This document shows positions 40,640 through 53,985 of a DNA stretch of 64,000 bases, piece after piece. Positions within the stretch are counted from its first letter, which is position 1, and each line of letters starts with the position of its first letter. The notes under the pieces were generated by a model that worked only from the letters and a program-made list of their open reading frames with translations, made no database searches and was not told where the DNA came from. The position numbers and the translations under genes were made by a program. Source of the DNA: Serendipita indica DSM 11827 (lineage: Eukaryota > Basidiomycota > Agaricomycetes > Sebacinales > Serendipitaceae); NCBI GenBank assembly GCA_910890315.1, contig CAJVGD010000002.1:62001-126000 (forward strand), read 5' to 3'.

Positions 40640-43472
40640 ATGCAGTCTCCTGGTATTTCCCCTGTAACTGAACATCTTTCAGAGAGCGCGAGGCCTAGTT
40701 CGCCCTGGTCGTCGCTTTCTCATGTTTTGAGAGCGCGTGGTCGAACGTTGTCCTCGTACACGTCCAAGATCCCCGTCCTCGCTGGCTCGTCACGATATCA
40801 AGCTTTTCAATTTTATTCTGACATTGGGGATGACCAGAAGTCAGAGGGCGATATTCCGTTGAGATTTGCAGACCCTCCCCCGACGCTCAAGGAGCTGCAC
40901 ATTGATGGACACAAGTTAAACCACCACCTTGATCAAGAAATATCTGGATTGGGAGACAATGCGGATGTCTGGGAAGAGTATTGCAACGAATCGGCGGTCA
41001 TAGACAGAGAACTCATTTCAGAACTCAACGGAAGTTTGGATGTACTTCTCATCTTCGTGAGAACTTTCCGCATATTCGCATCTTGTACTGACTGACCGAA
41101 AAGGCTGGTTTGTTCTGCGCAGTGCTCGCAGCCTTGTTGATAGAATCGTACAAGCTCCTCCTGCCCAGCAACGATGATCAGTCTCTCGTCCTCCTCGAAA
41201 ATATTCTTATCACACTGCATAACAAGACTGCGCCACAACTACCCATGCAACAAGACTTCAGCCCAAAGCCCTACGCCGTGCGGGTAAATACATTGTGGTT
41301 CGCATCCCTCGCTCTAGCACTTGGTGTCGCCGTGGAGGTGATGTTGGCTAAACAATGGCTCCACAAGTATGGTGAAGGTGCGAACTAAATGTTGTATGTA
41401 TGCATTACTGATCAACACCAGGTCTGTCAAATGTCCCTAGGCTTCGGACGCAGCTACGACAGTATCGCTACGACAACCTGCGCCGATGGGCTCTACCGGA
41501 AATGGTCAACTTTCTCCCCACATTACTTCATCTTGCACTTGCCCTCTTCCTCCTCGGTCTCATTGACTTCTTGTGGAATCTCAACATCTTCGTTGCAACT
41601 GTAACACTTTCAATTTGCACACTGTTTGGCGGTATATATGCCCTCCTCATGATACTCCCCCATCTATACACCGACTGTCCCTATAAAACGCCCTTCTCTC
41701 GCCTGCTGGGCTTGGCATATTTTCGCATCCGAACGGCATTACACAACTTGCGAGGGGATCACGCCGCACCTCCCAAGTTTGTGTCCTTGGAGCAAGCGGA
41801 GCAACAGGCTATACAGGCTCGGCGGGATGTCCTCCAAGCAAAGGCACTTGCATGGCTCATGACCAATTCCCGAAGCACGCTCATCGTAAAGACGGTCACC
41901 CGGTCCTTTGCGAGCTTAACGCCGGGCTTTACCGCAATGTCAATCCTTCGACAAGCGGGAGCAATCCAGCGCGTAGCAGAGCAGTTTCTCTCGTGCTTCA
42001 CGGAGAACAAAGTCTCCTCGTTTACCAGCGAACCGGCTTTTCGGTTTCAGCTAAACAAGGAGAAGAGTGAAGAAGCAGGGATCTATGCCCGAGCTCTTGT
42101 GGTTCTCACTGAGGGCCTACCAGCTACCCGCTGGCCTTTGAAGCCTCCCCGAGACCTCTTCCTGTACTCGGACGCGCTAGATTCTGCATTGGGCAGCCTT
42201 ATGAGCCAAACAGACGACGTGGATGTCGTCATGTACGCGATTGCTGCGAGAGAACATGTCTACCGCGCTGGACGGAATCGCTTCCCAAACAATCGATCTC
42301 AAGCTCCCGCTCATAGTCTGGGAGAACTCTTGGATGTCACCAGGAAGGTTTCAGACGATGAACTGATCCCGAGTATCAGTGGTGTCGTTTGCATTCTTGA
42401 CACAATCCGACGCTGTGTCGAGGCTACGGCATTGGAGCAGCGGTACTCTATATGGGAGGACTTTTCAGTGCCCCTGATGCAGATATTAGAGGACACACCT
42501 CCAGAGTGCCGTGTGAGAGAATCCCTTTCCCGGGTTCTAGCCTGCTTCGCCGGGCTGAGCCCTTCTCGCGATTATTCGGATGGAAACGACCCGACAGAGC
42601 ACCGGATCATTTTTGCGCTCTCCTCTCTTCTAGCCATTACTGACCGTAAAATGAAGCGGGAGGGTGAAGAAGAGATGATTGTGAACATGATCGCCGCTGC
42701 GTTGAGTGTCACGCTGGAGAGTTACAGCAGCTTCTTTGTTCATTCTATTCGACCGCTTAGCGAGCCTCTCGCCCTCCTTCTCCCTCTCATATCGACCTCG
42801 AATTCAACAGAGGTTAAGAAATCATGCCTGGACATGATACGACATGCGGACTATACGGATCTGCCACCAAACTCTTTTTCCTCTCTCATGGGAATTCTCA
42901 AAGATTCTGCATATTCCGAACTTCACCCCAACCTTGCCCAGGTACTGGACAAGCACATGCAAAATCCTCACGTCTCACCCCACCTCGCTGACCCAGCCAT
43001 CCTTCGCAGCATAATTGCACTCTTGGCGGCAAAGCATATAGAGACCAGAGTGCAAGCGTCAAGTCTACTACTCGAAACGTGCTCCTCAGCCCTCAGAGCG
43101 GGTGGCAAGGCAGCTCAACGTGCAGCATTAGACCCGCTCATTAAAAGCGGTCTTCTCGAAGGACTTTCAAACTACTTCCGGGTATGCACAGCAACTACAT
43201 CTACAGCAGATGAGGCAGCCTTGCTGTATGGTCGGGAAGACAATTGGGTCCCGCGGTTGCTTACCTTGCTCGATCTCTACCAGACCGAGATCATTGAGAG
43301 CGAGGTAATGGAAGCATGTATACTAATGTCCCTACAAATCCAACCGGGAAAGGCGGAAACGGCAACGAACCTCAAAGAGTGGTGGTCTCGATATACGGAA
43401 TGGGTTAATTCGCGCAGTAAAGGACCCAAACCTCGAGCGAAGGGTGCTCTCTATCGGAGACAGGATGTATAA
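40640..43472 (+). CDS. DUF6535-domain membrane protein
   Basis: Large basidiomycete-type membrane protein of unknown function. The N-terminal DUF6535 block is typical: DVWEEYCNESAVIDRELI, then a membrane helix DVLLIF-AGLFCAVLAALLIE across an intron, VNTLWFASLALALGVAVEVM and KQWLHKYGEG. Two further helices follow after a second intron (LLHLALALFLLGLIDFLW, ATVTLSICTLFGGIYALLMI). The remaining 500 or so residues form a soluble all-helical region, possibly Armadillo-like (LLPLISTSNSTEVKKSCLDM and similar helical pairs). Introns lie at about 41057-41104 and 41378-41422. The start at 40640 is the first ATG in the open frame. Such proteins are often multicopy in Agaricomycetes. Confidence 0.82.
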
Positions 43473-43588: not shown

Positions 43589-45236
43589 TCAGCTTTCATC
43601 GAGCTTCCTCTTCTTTCGCACAGGCTCTGAATTTTCTGGATCAGGTCCACTTGAGGAAACCATCCCGACGATTTGATCGAGACGACGAAACGCCTCGAAT
43701 AGTGCAGGTCCCACGGTTATGATTTGTGATTGCGGTATAAACCTTTGTGACCGTGGATATTGTGCAGATACCTCATCCATAGGGTGTAGCGGTGTCATCT
43801 CGACACCTTCCATAGATGTATCTCCCACCGGTTTGACTTCGTTGCTGTAACGGTGGAGAGTAAACGCATCCGCTGGGGTGGAGGAAACTTGCACCCCGAC
43901 GGCCTCAGTAAAGATATGTGAAATCTGGCTCCTAAGGTTCACTATGACTTGTTCTTTATCATCAAGTTGCCGACGTAGGTCCTCCTCAACCTGTTTGCTA
44001 CGCTCTCGCTCCTCTTCTAGCATCTTTTCAGAGAGAGCGAGGCGTTCTTTAAGAAACATAATGGTGGGGCTGTGCATTTCAGGATCGCTTACCCGCGATC
44101 TTTCTTCCTCTTGCAAGCTTTGATTGTGATGCACACCGATTGATTTATGGTCGGTTTGTATTCTGGCCAGACCTTCTTGTATTCGAACAAGGTGATTCCG
44201 CGAATCTTCATAGCGTTGTTCAAGTGGCTCGCTTTCCATAAGATTCACAGATATCTCTCCGTCAGATCTGCTCGTTACCAAGGAGCTTAAGCTGGCCGTT
44301 CGGTGCAGCTGGGCCCCTTCTACCCGCTGAAGAATTGATGGCTTCATAGGAGACAAGCGGGCGGAGAGTGCTGATTCTTGTATAGAGGCGGTGCCGGCAG
44401 GAGATGCCGAATGAATATCTCCATGGACTCGTTGGAGGAGGCTTGGAGGATTCGGAGAGCCATGGATTCTATCTATGAGATGAGACACTGCAGATTGAGA
44501 AGTTGGAGTTCCAACTCCAGCATCTGCTGCACTTGGAATCGTATCTGGTGGCTGCAGACGATGTAGAAGATCTACTCTTTTCGGCGAGGGCAGATTCGTG
44601 TCAGTCCCTATTGCAGGTAAGGTGGCGGAGACCTCAGCCCGAGCAGAGGATAAGTTGATTGACGGTGATGGCGTCGTCGGGTTTGGCGGAGTTGAATGTT
44701 GCCTTTGGGGCTGTCTTGCAGGTCGAATTTCCCGTTCATGAAGCTCGGATGGAGCCTCACGACGCAATCTTGAACGACCGGGAAGAGTGTCGTGTAGCTC
44801 TGGGAGGTATCGACTTGGCGCGTCGTATTTGCCTAGCAGGCGACGATTCAAACTTGAGATGCGAAGCCGCGAGTGTCCGGCGAGAGCCCTCTGAGCTCCA
44901 TCTGCCTTTAAAAAGGTCACGAAGACGTGCTCTCTCCCTCCATCCCTGAAAAATTGAACCCTATCCCTGTCAATGGTTCAGTCGTATGACAATAAATCGA
45001 AAAGAAAGAGGAGCCAGGAGTATTATATAGGGATATGGAGTCAATGGTGGTGAAGGCCGAGGCTAGAGTACTTACACGGCTCCAAACGAGGACAACTCTT
45101 CCCAAACAGCCCTTTCCGTGAGACTTTTGTCGACATCTTCGAGCATTATGATTCTTTGTTGAAGCCATGAAGGGATATAAAGCATTTCATGTGCGCGGCT
45201 GGTTGCGGTTAGGTTCAAGCAGAGGCGCGGCGTCAT
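43589..45236 (-). CDS. RRM-like/coiled-coil nuclear paralog A
   Basis: First of three tandem paralogs; family not recognised. Exons 45076..45236 and 43589..44966 give 512 aa plus stop, phase-consistent. Exon 1 ends with the RRM-like start (MLYIPSWLQQRIIMLEDVDK, then TERAVWEELSSFGAV). The second exon continues DRVQFFRDGGREHVFVTFLK and GAQRALAGH, a typical RRM beta2-beta3-helix2 path. A long Pro/Ser/Arg-rich segment absent from copies B and C follows. Then comes a coiled coil (IMFLKERLALSEKMLEEERE), and the shared C-terminal block ITVGPALFEAFRRLDQIVGM with the basic VRKKRKLDES. RNA binding and nuclear location are inference from the fold-like pattern and the KKRKL signal. Confidence 0.72.
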
Positions 45237-45343
45237 TCTCGTTTGTGGGCCGATGCGAATTCTAAGATACGACGAAACACCGAAAAATCGGATACAAGAG
45301 AGACTTGAATAAACAAACACCTAATGGTCTACATCCCCTGAAC

Positions 45344-46561
45344 TCAGAGATCGCCCAGCTTCCTCTTCTTTCGCATTGGTCCCTCCGGACCGTCTTTGAA
45401 AGCCTCCTTTGTGACATGATTGGATATTATTTGGTCAAGAAGACGAAATGCCTCGAGTATGGAGGGACCAACGGCTGAAATATACGTTTCCGATATTTGA
45501 CCTTTGGTATGACCTTTCTGGATGGCGCAATCCTCCAATTTTTCATGAAGAACAGTCTCCTGGTCCGTGTGCTTCATGTCCTGAGAGCCGGCAAGGTCGA
45601 TATTGAGTTCCATCTCAATATCTGCGCGGTGGACGATGTGAGGCTGGCTCGAAGATCCATTCCTGAGCTCCTCAATCACTCGATTTTGCTCTTCCACAGC
45701 GCGTCGAAGGTTAGCCTCGGCACGGCTGTGACGCTCTCGCTCTTCCGCTAGCAGCTTTTCTGATTGTGCTAGGCGATCCTTCAAAAGCACGACGCTTTTA
45801 TATGCTTCACCTAGATTATTGAGAAGCGATTTAGTGCCGTCTTGTAGTGGTAAAAGCTGACGCTCCAATTCGTGGGATCTTCTTTTCAACGCGTTAACAT
45901 AACCCCAAGAGAACGTTGTATCTCCATTACTGAACAATTCGAGCTTGCTCGAACCAGGCTCCAATCTAGTTTCCTCGTCCGAAGGCATCGAGTCTGAGGA
46001 ACATTCTGACGAGTGCTCCGATTCCATAGTCGGAGCCACATCATGATCATGATCATCATGGTCTCCTGTAGAATCCGGTCTATGTGACCGGGTCCTATTA
46101 TTTGATGCCCATCCCAAGATACGTTGCATGTAATGGGCTGGAGGCTCGTATCGTAAGAACCATACCCGAGTCATGGGTCTAATTGGAAGTTTTGAAGTGC
46201 CATTGAGGGCCCTCGTTGCGCTTTCAGAGTCTCTGAATGTGACTAGCGCATGCCTCTTCTTACTCTTGGAAATAATGATTTGCACTTGCTCCCTGTGAAT
46301 GGCTTCAGCAGGGTTCACTGGACGTCAAGAACGATTCATACACGATCCCAAGCAAGCCAGCCTTCTCTTGATAGTATCCTCGTCCAGCTCTTCATCAATA
46401 ACTTGAAGTAGAATAACTTGTTCTCGAAGCCACAGTGGAATTTTCATCCGGACCAAAGACGTGGCCGTGGCCAAGTTGCTCAACCACACGGCGATTGGTG
46501 CATATTCTCCAATGCAACTACCTTCGTAGAGCGGATATAAGATATTTGGACCTTTAATCAT
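45344..46561 (-). CDS. RRM-like/coiled-coil nuclear paralog B
   Basis: Second copy of the array, 388 aa in exons 46344..46561 and 45344..46292 with a 50-nt intron at the same place as in A and C. Exon 1 carries KIPLWLREQVILLQVIDEEL followed by DEDTIKRRLACLGS. Exon 2 opens EQVQIIISKSKKRHALVTFR with SATRALNGTSKLPIRPM, the RNP1-like strand. The middle has a His/Asp-rich stretch (GDHDDHDHDVAP) and a coiled coil (LLKDRLAQSEKLLAEERERH). The C-terminal block is YISAVGPSILEAFRLLDQII, then GPMRKKRKLGDL. The start is ATG 46561, which gives a longer leader than copy C. Spacing to A is about 108 bp and to C about 170 bp. Confidence 0.74.
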
Positions 46562-46730
46562 CGCTGTATGATGAAGACACCTGTGCCGAGTTACTGAAAT
46601 GGTGGGGACGAATCGAATTTCAGAGCCTCAACTACATACAGGGGTATGAGTAGTTGCATGATGCGGACAAATAGATTAAACCCAAAAAATCCGCAGGTCC
46701 ACATAGATACCTGATAAAGTAACAACCACC

Positions 46731-47705
46731 TCAGGCATCGCCTAGCTTTCTTTTTTTGCGCATCGGACCTTCTGAACCGTCTGTGAGAGCCTCCGCTGAA
46801 AGCGCGCCAGTTATAATTTGGTCAAGGAGACGAAATGCCTCGAGCAGGGAGGGGCCAACAGCTGAAATGTACGGTTGTGGGATGGGAAGGTGTGAAACGG
46901 CCTCGTTCTCTTGTTTCTCAGGGCGATATTTCGTTTCTTCTGTGGGATCTGTACACCCAGAATTGGACGGCGCATTGTCACTAATCTGCATGGTAGAGTC
47001 CTCCCTGGAGACGAGTGGAGGCTGGGTCAATCTAACCCTGAGCTCTTGGATCACTTGATTTTGTTCTTCTATTTTCTGTTGAAGGATCCTCTCGGCTTCG
47101 CTACGGTGCATTATTTCTTGCTTTAGCCTTTTCTTCGCATCCTCTAGACCTTCCTTGAGAAGGTTGATGTATTTGTGAGCTTCACCGAGATTGCTGCGAA
47201 GCTGCTGACTACTGCCTAGTAGTTGGTTGACTCGGTGTTCTGATTCTTCCAGCTTCTTCTTCAGAGCTTCGTCGTAGGATGAAGGTACTGCTACGGTCGG
47301 CTCTGTGGATGGGTATGGAATAAGGAACCGGGGGATGCCCAATGACCGTAGGATTTCTACTTGTTGACTATCCGTAAGCTTATATCGTGCGAACCATGTC
47401 GGATTCATGGGTTTGATTGGAAGATTGGATCTGCCATCAAGGGCTCTGGCTGCGCTTTCTCCATCCGTAAACGTTACGAGTGCATGCCTCTTCCCACTCG
47501 TCCTTCCGACAATGAATTGTACATTTTCCCTGTCAACAGCCTCAGCACTGTCCACCGGCAACTCTGATTGAATGTAGACTTACACATCTCCAAACTCGGC
47601 CAACTCTTCCGTCACAGTCTCTGCGTCTAGGTCCTCGCTGATTACTTGGAGTGAAATGACTCGTTCCCGTATCCACTGTGGAATGTGCATATATACGCTG
47701 TTCAT
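46731..47705 (-). CDS. RRM-like/coiled-coil nuclear paralog C
   Basis: Third copy, 306 aa in exons 47584..47705 and 46731..47529 with a 54-nt intron (GTAAGT...GACAG). Exon 1 reads MNSVYMHIPQWIRERVISLQ and ends ETVTEELAEFGDV. Exon 2 starts ENVQFIVGRTSGKRHALVTF, with SAARALDGRSNLPIKPMNPT. A coiled coil follows (NLGEAHKYINLLKEGLEDAK). The C-terminal block YISAVGPSLLEAFRLLDQII and GPMRKKRKLGDA is almost identical to copy B, so B and C are the closer pair. Copy C lacks the long linker of A and the His/Asp run of B. The open frame runs further upstream without an ATG, so an extra 5' exon is possible. Confidence 0.72.
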
Positions 47706-48077
47706 TGCTAGGGTGCAGACGTGGCCGGCTCCAGGTTCCGACCACACGCCGAATAAACAATTGGCATCATTGCTCTACGTATATCGGTTTCATAGCGAAG
47801 AGCAGACAATAAGAAGAATTACAGCACTGTTACAAGTTCCGTTCCTGGTAAGGGTTGTATAGACACCAAACGCCATTTGCTGAGAGCGTTCAACGGATCA
47901 TTGCAGCATACATTCTTCGTTCGGGAGCAGGGTCTGCTGTTTCCAAGAGAATTAAGCAACGCATCCGCATAAACGGGGTCCAAGGTTGAGTTTCCAACTT
48001 GACTTCGACCGCGTCCACCGTCGTCGCTACTCCAACGAATTTATAGCATACCACTAGCAAAAGAATCTCACTCACAA

Positions 48078-49930
48078 TGGCTGATGCATATGGTCAGTCT
48101 CTTATGTTTCCTCAGAGGTCTCGAGCTGATTTGTTCTTAGATGAGAGAGGTAAATGCCACATTTTCCTCTTGTGATAAATCCACCATGGCTCATGGCACT
48201 CCAAGCCATGTTTTTCTCAGCTAGCTAGCGCGCTATAATGGCCAAACCGCCCCAAATGTCGTGGCTCCTACTGACGACAAGTTGTAACATCCATGCGCTT
48301 ACCTCGCTCTTCTTGTGGCTCCCACAGATCGCCGACATCGTTCTCCTCGTCATTATGACCGCGACCGACGCGAACATCGAGACCGTGGAGATGACCGGTA
48401 CAAAAGAGATGATAGACGGGACGACAGACGCCCTCACCGTGACAGAGACGACAGATACAGAGACGAACCTCGAGACAGACGTCGTCACGATGAAGACCGT
48501 GGAGGATATCGACGCGATTCGTTTAGAGAGTCTCGCGACGACCGCAGACGCGACCGACATGCGTCCAACGACCGCAGGTCCCCTACACCTCCCAATTCCG
48601 TACCACTTTCTCAACGCAGGCGCAAGGCATCTGGTTGGGATGTGACTGCACCAGGCTACGAGCAATATTCTGCAATGCAGGCCAAACAGACTGGTGAGTT
48701 CATGCGAATATTTTGATCAATTCCAATGTCTCTTTAGGCCTCTTCAATCTTCCTGGCGCAAATAGGAGCCATGGACCCCAGATTATTGGTTTTACCGGCG
48801 CTCACCCTCCTGTCGCGACGGGCATGGTCAGCAATTCCAACCTTGCACGTCAATCCCGTCGACTCTACCTTGGCAGCATCACCCCTCTGGCGGATGAAGA
48901 GAGCATCGCGCTGTTCTTCAATTCACAGATGCGTGAACGCAAATTGACGACCAGCTCTGCGCCTCCAGTCCTGGCTGTACAGGTCAACCGCGAGAAAAAT
49001 TATGCCTTTGTCGAGTTTAGGAGCGCGGAAGATGCGACGGCTGGCATGGCATTGGATGGAACGGTCTTCTTGGATGGTCCTCTCCGCGTCCGTCGCCCTC
49101 ATGACTATGCTGGACCAGAGGCTATGACCGGCGTCGCTGGATTTGCGACATTGCTCCCAGCAACGATGCCAGACTCTGTCAACAAGATATTCATCGGTAA
49201 TCTTCCGACGCATCTTACAGAGGATCAGATCGTCGAGTTGCTGAAGAGCTTTGGTGAACTCAAGGCATTCAATCTGGTCAGGGAACACGGAACCAATGTT
49301 TCCAAGGTATTTACGGTCCGCATCACTCTTTCAATGAATCTAACAGGTAGTCAGGGCTTTGCGTTTGTCGAGTATGCAGACCCTGCCGTTACTGATATCG
49401 CTACGGAAAGCCTTAATGGTATGGATCTTGGAGACAAAAAACTCGTCGTTCAGCGCGCTTCCGTGGGTGCCAAGGGTGGCGTTCCCATACCACCAGAAGC
49501 AATGGACATTCCAGCACCAATCGTGGCTGTCGATCTGAACAAGGAAGCAAACGGACGCGTCGTTCTCATGTTGAACATGGTTGTGGCCGAGGATTTGATG
49601 GACGATGTCGAGTACGAAGAGATCCTCGACGACATTCGCAGCGAATGCAGCGGCTTTGGCCAGGTTCTTGGTGTCTATGTGCCACGACCACTTAAAAAGG
49701 ACAAGTCTCGCTGGGATACCATGGATCCAAACACCATGTCTCCCGCGGAGATTGCCAAAGCGGACGAGATTGCGGGAGTCGGCCGAGTTTACGTCAAGTT
49801 TTCTGACACGGAAGGCGCCACGACGGCGGTCCGACAGCTCGCGGGACGCTCGTTTGCAGGGAGAACTATTATTACAACACTCATGAGGGAAGATGACCCA
49901 GATGTGCAGCGCGTCTTTCCCAATGCTTGA
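48078..49930 (+). CDS. U2AF2: Splicing factor U2AF large subunit
   Basis: Binds the polypyrimidine tract at 3' splice sites and recruits U2 snRNP. An Arg/Asp-rich RS-like region (HYDRDRREHRDRGDDRYKRD) comes first. Then the SF1/U2AF35-contact region (RKASGWDVTAPGYEQYSAMQ), RRM1 (SRRLYLGSITPLADEESI, KNYAFVEFRSAEDATAGM), RRM2 (NKIFIGNLPTHLTEDQIVEL, SKGFAFVEYADPAVTDIA across an intron) and the C-terminal UHM (RVVLMLNMVVAEDLMDDVEY, GRVYVKFSDTEGATTAV, FAGRTIITTLM). The first coding exons are tiny (48078..48093 and 48141..48149). The frame link between the exon at 48229 and the one at 48328 was not resolved, so the N-terminal 30 residues are uncertain. Confidence 0.93.
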
Positions 49931-50791: not shown

Positions 50792-53700
50792 ATGGACCGG
50801 GCAGACGCGCGTAGGGAAGCCAGAGCAGACAGGAGACAGCTCGCACAGAATCCGTATGGCTCGCGACCGCCCCGCAAAAAGGTTAGCAAAGTTTTGTTGG
50901 CGGGCCCATCGCCTTTGTTGGCATCGCGCTCAGCGCTCGAAAATAGATTAATAGGGTCAAGCCGAGCGGTCTCTGGGGTCTGATAAAATCTTGGTCATTT
51001 TTTGGCCAAGGTGAGGAGCAAAACGGTGATGATTTGGAGGACTACGAGTCGGACGAGACTGCGCAAGCCGGAACGCATTCTCATCCAGAAAACTCGTCAT
51101 TCTCGGATAATTCAACCTCTGGGACGGAGACAGGATCCGTGGTGTCCTCCCAGAATGCCCCGAGCACAGTTGCGCACCAGGTGCGGCCCAGCTTTCGAAG
51201 GCACAGGGTCAGTATGCTCCCTTGTTTGTAGCATTATGACTAACCCTATCATTTGGTAGATGCCTGGTGAATTCATACGCGCCTCATCGCGAACGCCCAC
51301 TCCCGGGCCCAGAACTACAACTCATATGAACGCACTTGCTCAAGCCATCGCCCAAGAGCAACAAGAGGCAGCCCAAAGCAAATTCGAGTCTCGTGCTAGC
51401 CCCGATATCTCTATCCCAGGCTCCTTTGAGGCCCAGTCATCATCCCAGAAAGACGAGGGCAAGGCTTTGGTGAGACTCGGCCAGCCGGAGTCAGAGGCCA
51501 AACCAGATCAGCCAGCCAATCTTGCGGCACCTGTTGATGAATCAGGGCTCAGCGGCTCTACAGACCTTGATGAACTGGTACCCCCGCCTGTGCCGACCCA
51601 TGGACTGCCACCATTCCGCTCTCAATTCGCACCACCGGCCGGTAGCCCTATATTTGATCCTATTCCTCTGGCTCCCAACAAAGGACCGCTAACGGATGAG
51701 GAGAAAGCCGAGTTCCGCAAGAGGATGGATGAACGAAATTATGAGATTAGAAAGTTCCTCGACATTGATTACAACGAGCTTTACGAACCTGGCGCATGGG
51801 ATGAGCTTCTTCGATACAACCGCGTTAAAGGCAAGCACGATTTTTGTTGGAATGACGAAATCTCACCCCTCCGCAGTTACTCCCCCTCCGCCCGAGGAAG
51901 GAGATTTGGTCGACTTTGATGACGATCTACCAAAGGAGACTGTATCTATAAAGCCTGGTGAAAAGAAGTTTGATCCGTCCAGGGATCCAAATGAAGTGGG
52001 TTGCATTTGCAGTATATGGCTACATTTACTGACAAAGACCTCCAGGGGTACACACCAGAGGAACTCATGGTGAACCCGTATCAGCGCATCAGCGCATTTC
52101 GTGGGCGCTCCCGCCATATTTTGCGGCGAACGAATAACCCCCCACCTCGTCCTAAACCGATACCTCCACCTCAAACGTCTACTCCTACATCGACATTTGT
52201 TGTGCCGCCGAAACCCGAGACCGTTACCTCAAATGCCACTTTAAAGCGTCGCGTTTTATCTCCAGGAGAGGTAAGATCAGCTGCGGGTTTCGAGATTCCT
52301 CTCTCACCGGTCGCTTGCAGAAACAGGTCCTCCCAACGAAGAAGAAAGATAAGCGTGAGGTTCTGATGTCCCGTTTGAGTAGTGGCTTGAATAAGGCAAT
52401 TCCGGAGGCAGTGTTGGCCATGGACAACGACCCAACGGTTGAGAAATCAGAGCGGGAAGACTTTGGCCTCATCCCAGGTGTTGGAGTGTACACCTCCCTG
52501 AGCACACGGCGCTCTCAACCTCTGTTGGTTGCAACGAAAGGAGCAGTGCTCGATCCTCCCAAGGCTCGGCCATCCAAATACACCAGTTCCACCGAAGGAG
52601 AAATGGAGGTGGATGAAAACCTTGACAGTCGGTTTATTATTTACGCCGAGGGAGAAGATGCGGATATGGCCCAATCGGAAGATATGGAGCAGCTACAAGC
52701 GGGCGAAGAAGGTCAGGAGGATGACATGGTGGACGAAACCCCTCAACCTCTGCCAGTTGCAAAGAAGGTAAAGAAGCGACCTACGATTCGAGCACCGGAG
52801 ATGCTCAGGCCAAAGAACTCGTTGCACTCGCCGATTAATCCATCACCTCTACGCTTCATGTCCAAGTTTTCTCCGGACAGTCCTGAAGCGGTTCCCGTAG
52901 CTCCTCTCCCCGGGAGTGCAATGCAAGAAGACAACGAGGACATCCTGATGATGGATAGGCTGCCGGGATACAGCCTGCGCATATACTCGTTTGCACCTGG
53001 CTCCCTTGCTTCTATTAAACCAACGCGAGCATTGATGTTGGCAAAGGAGAGAGCGAAGACTTTGTCCGTTCACACCCTGCCCGACTACCCACTTGCCCAA
53101 CAAGTCCCGGCCAAACGATCGAGTCGACTCCGCGAGAAAGGCCTTTCTCCTCCTAGAAGGCCACCACACTCTCTGCGAGGTGTCGGTGTCTCACCGAAGC
53201 GGGTGAACGGCACTGCATCTTCGACAGCCAACACACCATCAGCTGAAGTGGCGAAGAATTCGTCCTCAGCCTCTAATGGTGTTCCTCCCTTGCGACTCCC
53301 CCCAGCACCGAATACGAAGCTGCCCCCTTCACAAGCCTCAGTGGTCGATCTTGCTACGCCGCTACCTTCACAAAAGCAATCGCGATTGCAGCCCGCGGCG
53401 TCTCCACACACCCGGACCAACGAATGGGCATCTGCGGGCTTGCAAAAACCACAAATTCAACCCACCAGTGTGCCAGCAGCTGCACCCACGACCAGTGGGT
53501 TCAATTGGGGAGCTGCTGGCATCAAAGCCCCGTCAAAGTCCTCTGGGTCCTGGACTTGTGACGTCTGTATGATCAGTAACGACGCGGATAAAGAAAAATG
53601 TGCGGCTTGCGAAAGTCCTCGACCTGCAACTTCCGCACCTCCTGCTCCCACGACCAGTGGGTTTAACTGGGGAGCCGCTGGCATCAAGGCCCCGGCAAAG

Positions 53701-53985
53701 TCTTCTGGATCTTGGACTTGCGACGTCTGTATGATTAGTAACGATGCAGCCAAGGAGAAATGTGCGGCTTGCGAGAGTCCTCGGCCTGCGGCAGCTACAC
53801 CCGCCGCACCTGCTGCACCATCAAGTTCGACACCTGTGGTGCCGCCTACCAGTGGATTCAACTGGGGTGCTGCCGGTCTCAAAGCACCGTCAACGCCTTC
53901 GGGATCCTGGAACTGTGGAGTCTGTATGGTCTCCAACGATGCGACCAAAGACAAGTGCATATGTTGCGAGACGCCAAGGGGGTAA
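50792..53985 (+). CDS. Nucleoporin with three RanBP2-type zinc fingers
   Basis: Probable nuclear-basket nucleoporin of the Nup153/Nup1 kind. The first exon is basic (MDRADARREARADRRQLAQ). After an intron the acidic segment FFGQGEEQNGDDLEDYES follows. A long disordered Pro/Ser-rich region contains conserved nucleoporin-type stretches (DPIPLAPNKGPLTDEEKAEF, PYQRISAFRGRSRHILRRT, GLIPGVGVYTSLSTRRS). The C-terminus holds three tandem units of TSGFNWGAAGIKAP plus a zinc finger: SGSWTCDVCMISNDADKEKC AACESPRP and two variants, each with the four Cys of the RanBP2 type and a W at the start. GFNWGAAG is the FG-like part. Stop at 53985. The export/import role is inferred from the domain content. Several short introns lie in the first 1.5 kb. 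Confidence 0.82.
53480..53982 (+). repeat. Three tandem GFNWG-zinc finger coding repeats
   Basis: Three units of about 150-190 nt encode TSGFNWGAAG plus a RanBP2 zinc finger. Units 1 and 2 (about 53488-53630 and 53653-53795) are nearly identical at DNA level, for example both carry GACGTCTGTATGATYAGTAACGA. Unit 3 (about 53848-53980) is diverged and changes the start of the finger to SWNCGVCMVSND. The linkers are Ala/Pro/Thr-rich. Confidence 0.8.

Follow-up and report, generated by a model that had tools for sequence, protein, structure and literature searches.

What do three adjacent minus-strand genes of the basidiomycete Serendipita indica DSM 11827 encode, and how did they come to lie side by side? 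The genes, here called A, B and C, occupy positions 43589 to 47705 of a 64,000-nucleotide stretch (assembly GCA_910890315.1, contig CAJVGD010000002.1, positions 62,001 to 126,000; hereafter the window, to whose numbering the coordinates refer). An initial annotation had described them as a recently duplicated array encoding proteins with an RNA-recognition motif (RRM)-like domain, a coiled coil and a conserved C-terminal block. We find that the array is real, that its duplications are old and its proteins constrained, and that one part of each protein, the RRM, is clearly a known domain, the rest being uncharacterised. With a probability of about one in two, these old paralogues encode nuclear oligomerising adaptors whose RRM is non-canonical.

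An old tandem array of three genes

The three genes lie head to tail, and the outer limits of their models coincide with those first proposed. Joining the exons at GT...AG boundaries gives in-frame coding sequences, stop included, of 1488 (A), 1053 (B) and 921 (C) nucleotides, which encode proteins of 495, 350 and 306 amino acids; the start codons are putative and were assigned at a conserved ATG. The gene models are:

43589..45185, minus strand: gene A; exon 1 45185-45076, intron 45075-44967 (109 nucleotides, GTAAGT...CAG), exon 2 44966-43589
45344..46447, minus strand: gene B; exon 1 46447-46344, intron 46343-46293 (51 nucleotides, GTGTAT...CAG), exon 2 46292-45344
46731..47705, minus strand: gene C; exon 1 47705-47584, intron 47583-47530 (54 nucleotides, GTAAGT...CAG), exon 2 47529-46731

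Each gene has a single phase-2 intron at a homologous place in the protein, in agreement with the common intron position that had been claimed, and all three products have the same order of parts: RRM, linker, coiled coil, acidic linker, end block and RKKRKL. When the proteins were aligned end to end, the N-terminal 85-90 residues, the coiled-coil stretch and the C-terminal block were conserved, and the linkers could not be aligned with one another. Identity over aligned positions was 48% for C-B, 32% for C-A and 30% for B-A, so that B and C are indeed the closer pair. Whole-protein local alignments scored 514 against a maximum of 65 in 200 shuffles for C-B, 163 against 67 for C-A and 194 against 72 for B-A, and the first 95 and last 70 residues likewise scored above all 200 residue shuffles in every pair. 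Local duplication, as first proposed, is supported.

Divergence was measured by Nei-Gojobori counts over aligned codons. For C-B, C-A and B-A respectively, the proportion of synonymous differences (pS) was 0.64, 0.81 and 0.73 and that of nonsynonymous differences (pN) 0.34, 0.46 and 0.50, giving pN/pS ratios of 0.53, 0.57 and 0.68 with bootstrap ranges of 0.45-0.64, 0.50-0.65 and 0.59-0.77. Synonymous distance (dS) was 1.43 for C-B, 2.84 for B-A and undefined for C-A, values that do not support the recent origin originally suggested; judged by this divergence, the duplications are old as well as local. Third codon positions were the most changed in all three pairs. These counts indicate that the proteins are under constraint, which is not tight, and they support the proposal that both ends of the proteins are constrained.

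Outside the coding sequences, no pair of introns (0/3) and no pair of downstream stretches (0/3) scored above its own 200 shuffles. One of the three upstream pairs did, that of C with B (47706-48005 and 46448-46730, minus strand; score 32, shuffle maximum 26), and this common stretch may be a regulatory element or an unrecognised N-terminal coding extension.

Across the 24.7 Mb genome, searches that used the array DNA, proteins A, B and C and the end block of C as queries, in a tool that scores the best candidates only, found no fourth significant copy. The nearest other genomic RRM, at C1:595185-595346, matched A at an E value of 0.166 and was set aside as not significant.

Splicing restores an RRM in each copy

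We compared the RRM regions with the Pfam family RRM_1 (PF00076), for which the curated cut-off is 20.7 bits. With the exons joined, all three regions passed (C 27.1, B 21.8 and A 24.3 bits). The exon-2 part alone fell below the cut-off in every copy (C 14.6 and B 18.3 bits, A without a match), exon 1 alone gave nothing in C, the one copy scanned, and an unspliced reading of C reached 15.3 bits. Because the joined exons pass and exon 2 alone fails, splicing restores the RRM in all three copies, a result that speaks for the gene models as well. The suggestion of an RRM-like domain split by the intron was thus correct. The domain lies at:

47376..47684, minus strand: RRM of C, residues 8-92, interrupted by the intron after helix 1 and ahead of strand 2
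46142..46447, minus strand: RRM of B, to about residue 85
44819..45185, minus strand: RRM of A, to about residue 86

A profile of the three proteins searched against a PDB set (best 60 of 115 matches) found PABP1 with a whole-sequence E value of 0.00054 and a best stretch of 0.0045 on RRM2. The single C sequence reached only 0.084 (27 matches). By sequence, then, A, B and C are members of the RRM superfamily.

We also predicted structures with AlphaFold2, using C with an 18-residue intron reading retained and a four-row alignment. Mean predicted local distance difference test (pLDDT) was 55.7 for the full C model and 44.9 for a model of the RRM only, likewise made from an intron-retained reading and a four-row alignment. 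In both models the RRM part followed the order strand-helix-strand-strand-helix (E-H-E-E-H) with the last strand unformed and with low confidence. The best Foldseek match of the RRM-only model was the RRM of MEC-8, at an E value of 0.30. Confidence in these models is too low for them to count for or against the RRM fold.

A coiled coil, unrelated linkers and a conserved end block

The confident part of the full C model was an 84-residue helix (residues 144-227 of the model, 126-209 of the spliced protein) with pLDDT mostly above 90. The corresponding stretches are:

47025..47276, minus strand: coiled coil or long single helix of C, residues 126-209; AlphaFold2 helix
45656..45898, minus strand: coiled coil of B, about residues 167-247; from alignment to C
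43901..44074, minus strand: coiled coil of A, shorter and weaker; from alignment

In the best 42-residue window, hydrophobic residues filled 0.75 of heptad positions a and d in C, 0.75 in B and 0.58 in A, fractions given without a shuffle control. Tandem copies with such similar heptads could hetero-oligomerise. Coiled-coil library matches, for example to mutS2, Fib_alpha and Leu_zip, were dismissed as coiled-coil noise; among the Pfam and NCBIfam rows listed, all were under their curated cut-offs (one scan covered C and B, another the best 25 of 35 rows for the coiled coil).

As noted before, the linker of A is rich in Pro and Ser and that of B contains a His/Asp run; the B linker is acidic, with a net charge of -10 over 78 residues. 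The linker of A also contains:

44321..44569, minus strand: four [LIV][LIV]xR[LIV] motifs, two of them in PSLLQRVHG and PSILQRVEG

Four such motifs fall within residues 67-330 of A where 0.22 were expected, a number reached in 1 of 20,000 shuffles, for a pattern picked after inspection of this linker. Neither B nor C has any. The four-motif stretch could serve as a multivalent docking site.

The most conserved part of the proteins is the end block (C-B 76%, C-A 49% and B-A 44% identity):

46734..46859, minus strand: end block of C, VGPSLLEAFRLLDQI ... MRKKRKLGDA; amphipathic by helical moment
45347..45472, minus strand: end block of B, VGPSILEAFRLLDQI ... MRKKRKLGDL; amphipathic by helical moment
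43592..43714, minus strand: end block of A, VGPALFEAFRRLDQI ... VRKKRKLDES; amphipathic by helical moment

In six frames across the window, the end-block pattern and KKRKL each occurred three times, once per gene. The helical moment of the end segment exceeded the shuffle mean in all three copies; the fractions of shuffles that reached it were 0.7%, 1.8% and 3.5%. Within the block, pS was 0.52, 0.83 and 0.70, compared with 0.64, 0.81 and 0.73 overall (C-B, C-A and B-A). As the protein has been kept while its synonymous sites have diverged, selection is the best explanation of this conservation, and gene conversion was rejected. A Folliculin match to the end block of C was set aside (E 0.097; 12.9 bits against 23.3); B and A gave none.

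A non-canonical RRM and a proposed adaptor role

In canonical RRMs, the aromatic residues that stack on RNA occupy positions beta1-3, beta3-3 and beta3-5, equivalent to RNP2-2, RNP1-3 and RNP1-5 of the ribonucleoprotein (RNP) motifs, according to the available part of PMC9894542. We placed these positions in the array by the register of the PDB-set profile match. RNP1 reads KRHALVTF in C and in B and REHVFVTF in A; RNP2 reads ISLQVI, ILLQVI and IMLEDV in C, B and A. The residues at RNP2-2, RNP1-3 and RNP1-5 are thereby S/H/L in C, L/H/L in B and M/H/F in A, with Phe or Tyr at 0/3, 0/3 and 1/3 positions, and none of the three proteins has the full set that marks a canonical RNA-binding RRM. Since the stacking Phe/Tyr are mostly lost, these RRMs are non-canonical and RNA binding is less likely than for a standard RRM.

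We propose that the trio encodes nuclear oligomerising adaptors. Nuclear import would rely on the RKKRKL tail as a signal of the importin-alpha type. Through the coiled coil, A, B and C would oligomerise with themselves or with one another, and the RRM sheet, without its stacking Phe/Tyr, would mainly bind protein, or else RNA in a weak and non-canonical manner. The end helix would dock all three proteins on the same partner, and each copy would reach separate targets through its own, unrelated linker. We infer all of these functional steps from sequence features and one confidently predicted helix, the nuclear location being suggested by the tail. A more specific version, which we put forward only tentatively, is an undescribed fungal family in which a degenerate RRM serves to bind protein and sits on a coiled-coil scaffold, the ancient trio assembles combinatorially into homo- and hetero-oligomers through its coiled coils, and one docking helix and a nuclear tail are combined with differing linkers, that of A carrying four docking motifs.

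Several observations weigh against the adaptor proposal. In whole-protein RRM_1 scans C alone passed (24.8 bits), with B at 18.8 and A at 20.4 just under the cut-off, and an exon-wise RRM_1 search of the genome (102 matches, E <= 0.1) recovered no exon of the array, an absence that is expected if single exon pieces are too weak. The C-terminal helix of the C model (277-298) has low to moderate pLDDT, with block means of 47-66. At E <= 0.001 Foldseek returned 0 of 1093 matches to PDB structures for the full model and 0 of 828 for the RRM-only model, from RRM models of low confidence. Finally, RNA binding could still come from the histidine at RNP1-3, which can stack, and from basic residues.

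If RNA is bound after all, A, B and C might be RNA binders of the hnRNP C type, with one RRM per chain and a coiled-coil oligomer that strengthens binding and packages nascent transcripts. This is the rival that survives best, and we regard it as rather unlikely. The broad order is similar, with an N-terminal RRM, an oligomerising helix and a nuclear signal, and the profile looks like those of RRMs that bind RNA, for example PABP1 RRM2. However, hnRNP C, as described in the available part of PMC8994388, has a canonical RRM, a 28-residue oligomerising helix and a nuclear signal in mid-protein, and none of these three features was found in A, B or C: the Phe/Tyr of RNP1 and RNP2 are mostly absent, the predicted helix has 84 residues, and the basic signal stands at the very C-terminus. 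Nor was hnRNP C among the 27 matches of the single C sequence or the best 60 of 115 profile matches.

The splice donor of gene B

At the end of B exon 1 (46334-46347, minus strand) two donors, GTGTAT and GTATGA, overlap two bases apart, and the exon is one codon shorter than that of C. Only GTGTAT keeps B in frame; with GTATGA, which aligns with the donor of C, the frame would shift and a stop codon would come up within 20 codons after the exon junction. We take GTATGA, by the usual consensus, to be the better-looking donor. Because the B frame needs the weak-looking GTGTAT, B may be weakly spliced or on its way out. The double donor possibly reflects a donor shift after loss of one base, regulated unproductive splicing or early decay.

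The last of these could extend to the array, with B or all copies relaxing after duplication and the common pattern a leftover of an older functional gene. The short exon and frameshifting donor of B would fit such decay, as would linkers that cannot be aligned and pN/pS ratios of 0.53-0.68, which are not low. On the other hand, all three exon-2 frames are long and open, B has an in-frame GT donor, third codon positions changed most in every pair, and the bootstrap upper limits of pN/pS are 0.64, 0.65 and 0.77. We consider partial decay improbable.

Neighbouring genes

Four further loci of the window, all on the plus strand, carried recognisable features. The one that adjoins the array on the opposite strand (48288-49930) has an RS/RD-rich start and two RRM_1 stretches within the open reading frame 48698-49930; its product presumably resembles the large subunit of U2AF, a name suggested by its sequence. 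On the other side, a convergent frame (41412-43472) lies 116 bases from the stop of A and matches the end of a DUF6535 domain at 62 bits; the DUF6535 family is typical of Agaricomycetes. Farther off, 52156-53985 encodes three RanBP-type zinc fingers in tandem units that are near-identical by eye, together with long low-complexity stretches, and its product is possibly a nucleoporin-like protein. At 300-1664 lies a clear actin-interacting protein 3 domain of the Bud6/Aip3 family (PF03915, E 9.5e-104).

Relation to known systems

If the adaptor proposal is true, a small set of nuclear RRM/coiled-coil adaptors has long been kept as a tandem trio, and the conserved end helix offers a handle for the partner complex and for orthologues. 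As an annotation the array would be useful, and it would offer a manageable case in which to test how RRMs give up RNA contact and turn into protein modules. It is also a fairly ordinary gene family, which leaves the general picture unchanged.

A degenerate RRM in protein contact has a precedent in UPF3, whose RRM-like domain binds UPF2. Smg4_UPF3 itself was absent from the families listed for A, B and C to an E value of 10, a range in which HMMER filters drop most matches above 0.1. Patterns from the array found no relatives among 588 coiled-coil pattern stretches (from the three-protein alignment) in bacterial and archaeal contigs or 33 end-block pattern stretches in viral contigs, results of little weight for the wrong kingdoms. 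In the paper listings obtained for basidiomycete RRM/coiled-coil families no title or abstract start named such a family, which is not proof of novelty, and the available part of PMC6235564 gives no link between Csa1/Csa2 and the array.

That A, B and C are coiled-coil RRM dimers like the DBHS proteins NONO and SFPQ is very improbable: among the 1093 Foldseek rows for the full model, DBHS chains filled 19 of the best 20 places and 29 of the best 50 (best E 0.042), but no row reached E 0.001, the template-modelling (TM) scores of 0.11-0.21 and root-mean-square deviations of 13-23 Å of the DBHS rows amount to no fold match, and whereas two RRMs, a NOPS domain and a coiled coil characterise the DBHS family (available part of PMC8754649), each array protein has one RRM stretch and the Pfam scan found no NOPS family. 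We rejected the resemblance to NONO, SFPQ and PSPC1; what they share with the array is an RRM followed by a coiled coil. Within the RRM superfamily, the nearest solved chains are PABP1 RRM2, RBM39 and RBM8A, and outside the RRM the matches of A, B and C are weak coiled-coil ones alone. Compared with hnRNP C, the three proteins carry the conserved end block in addition.

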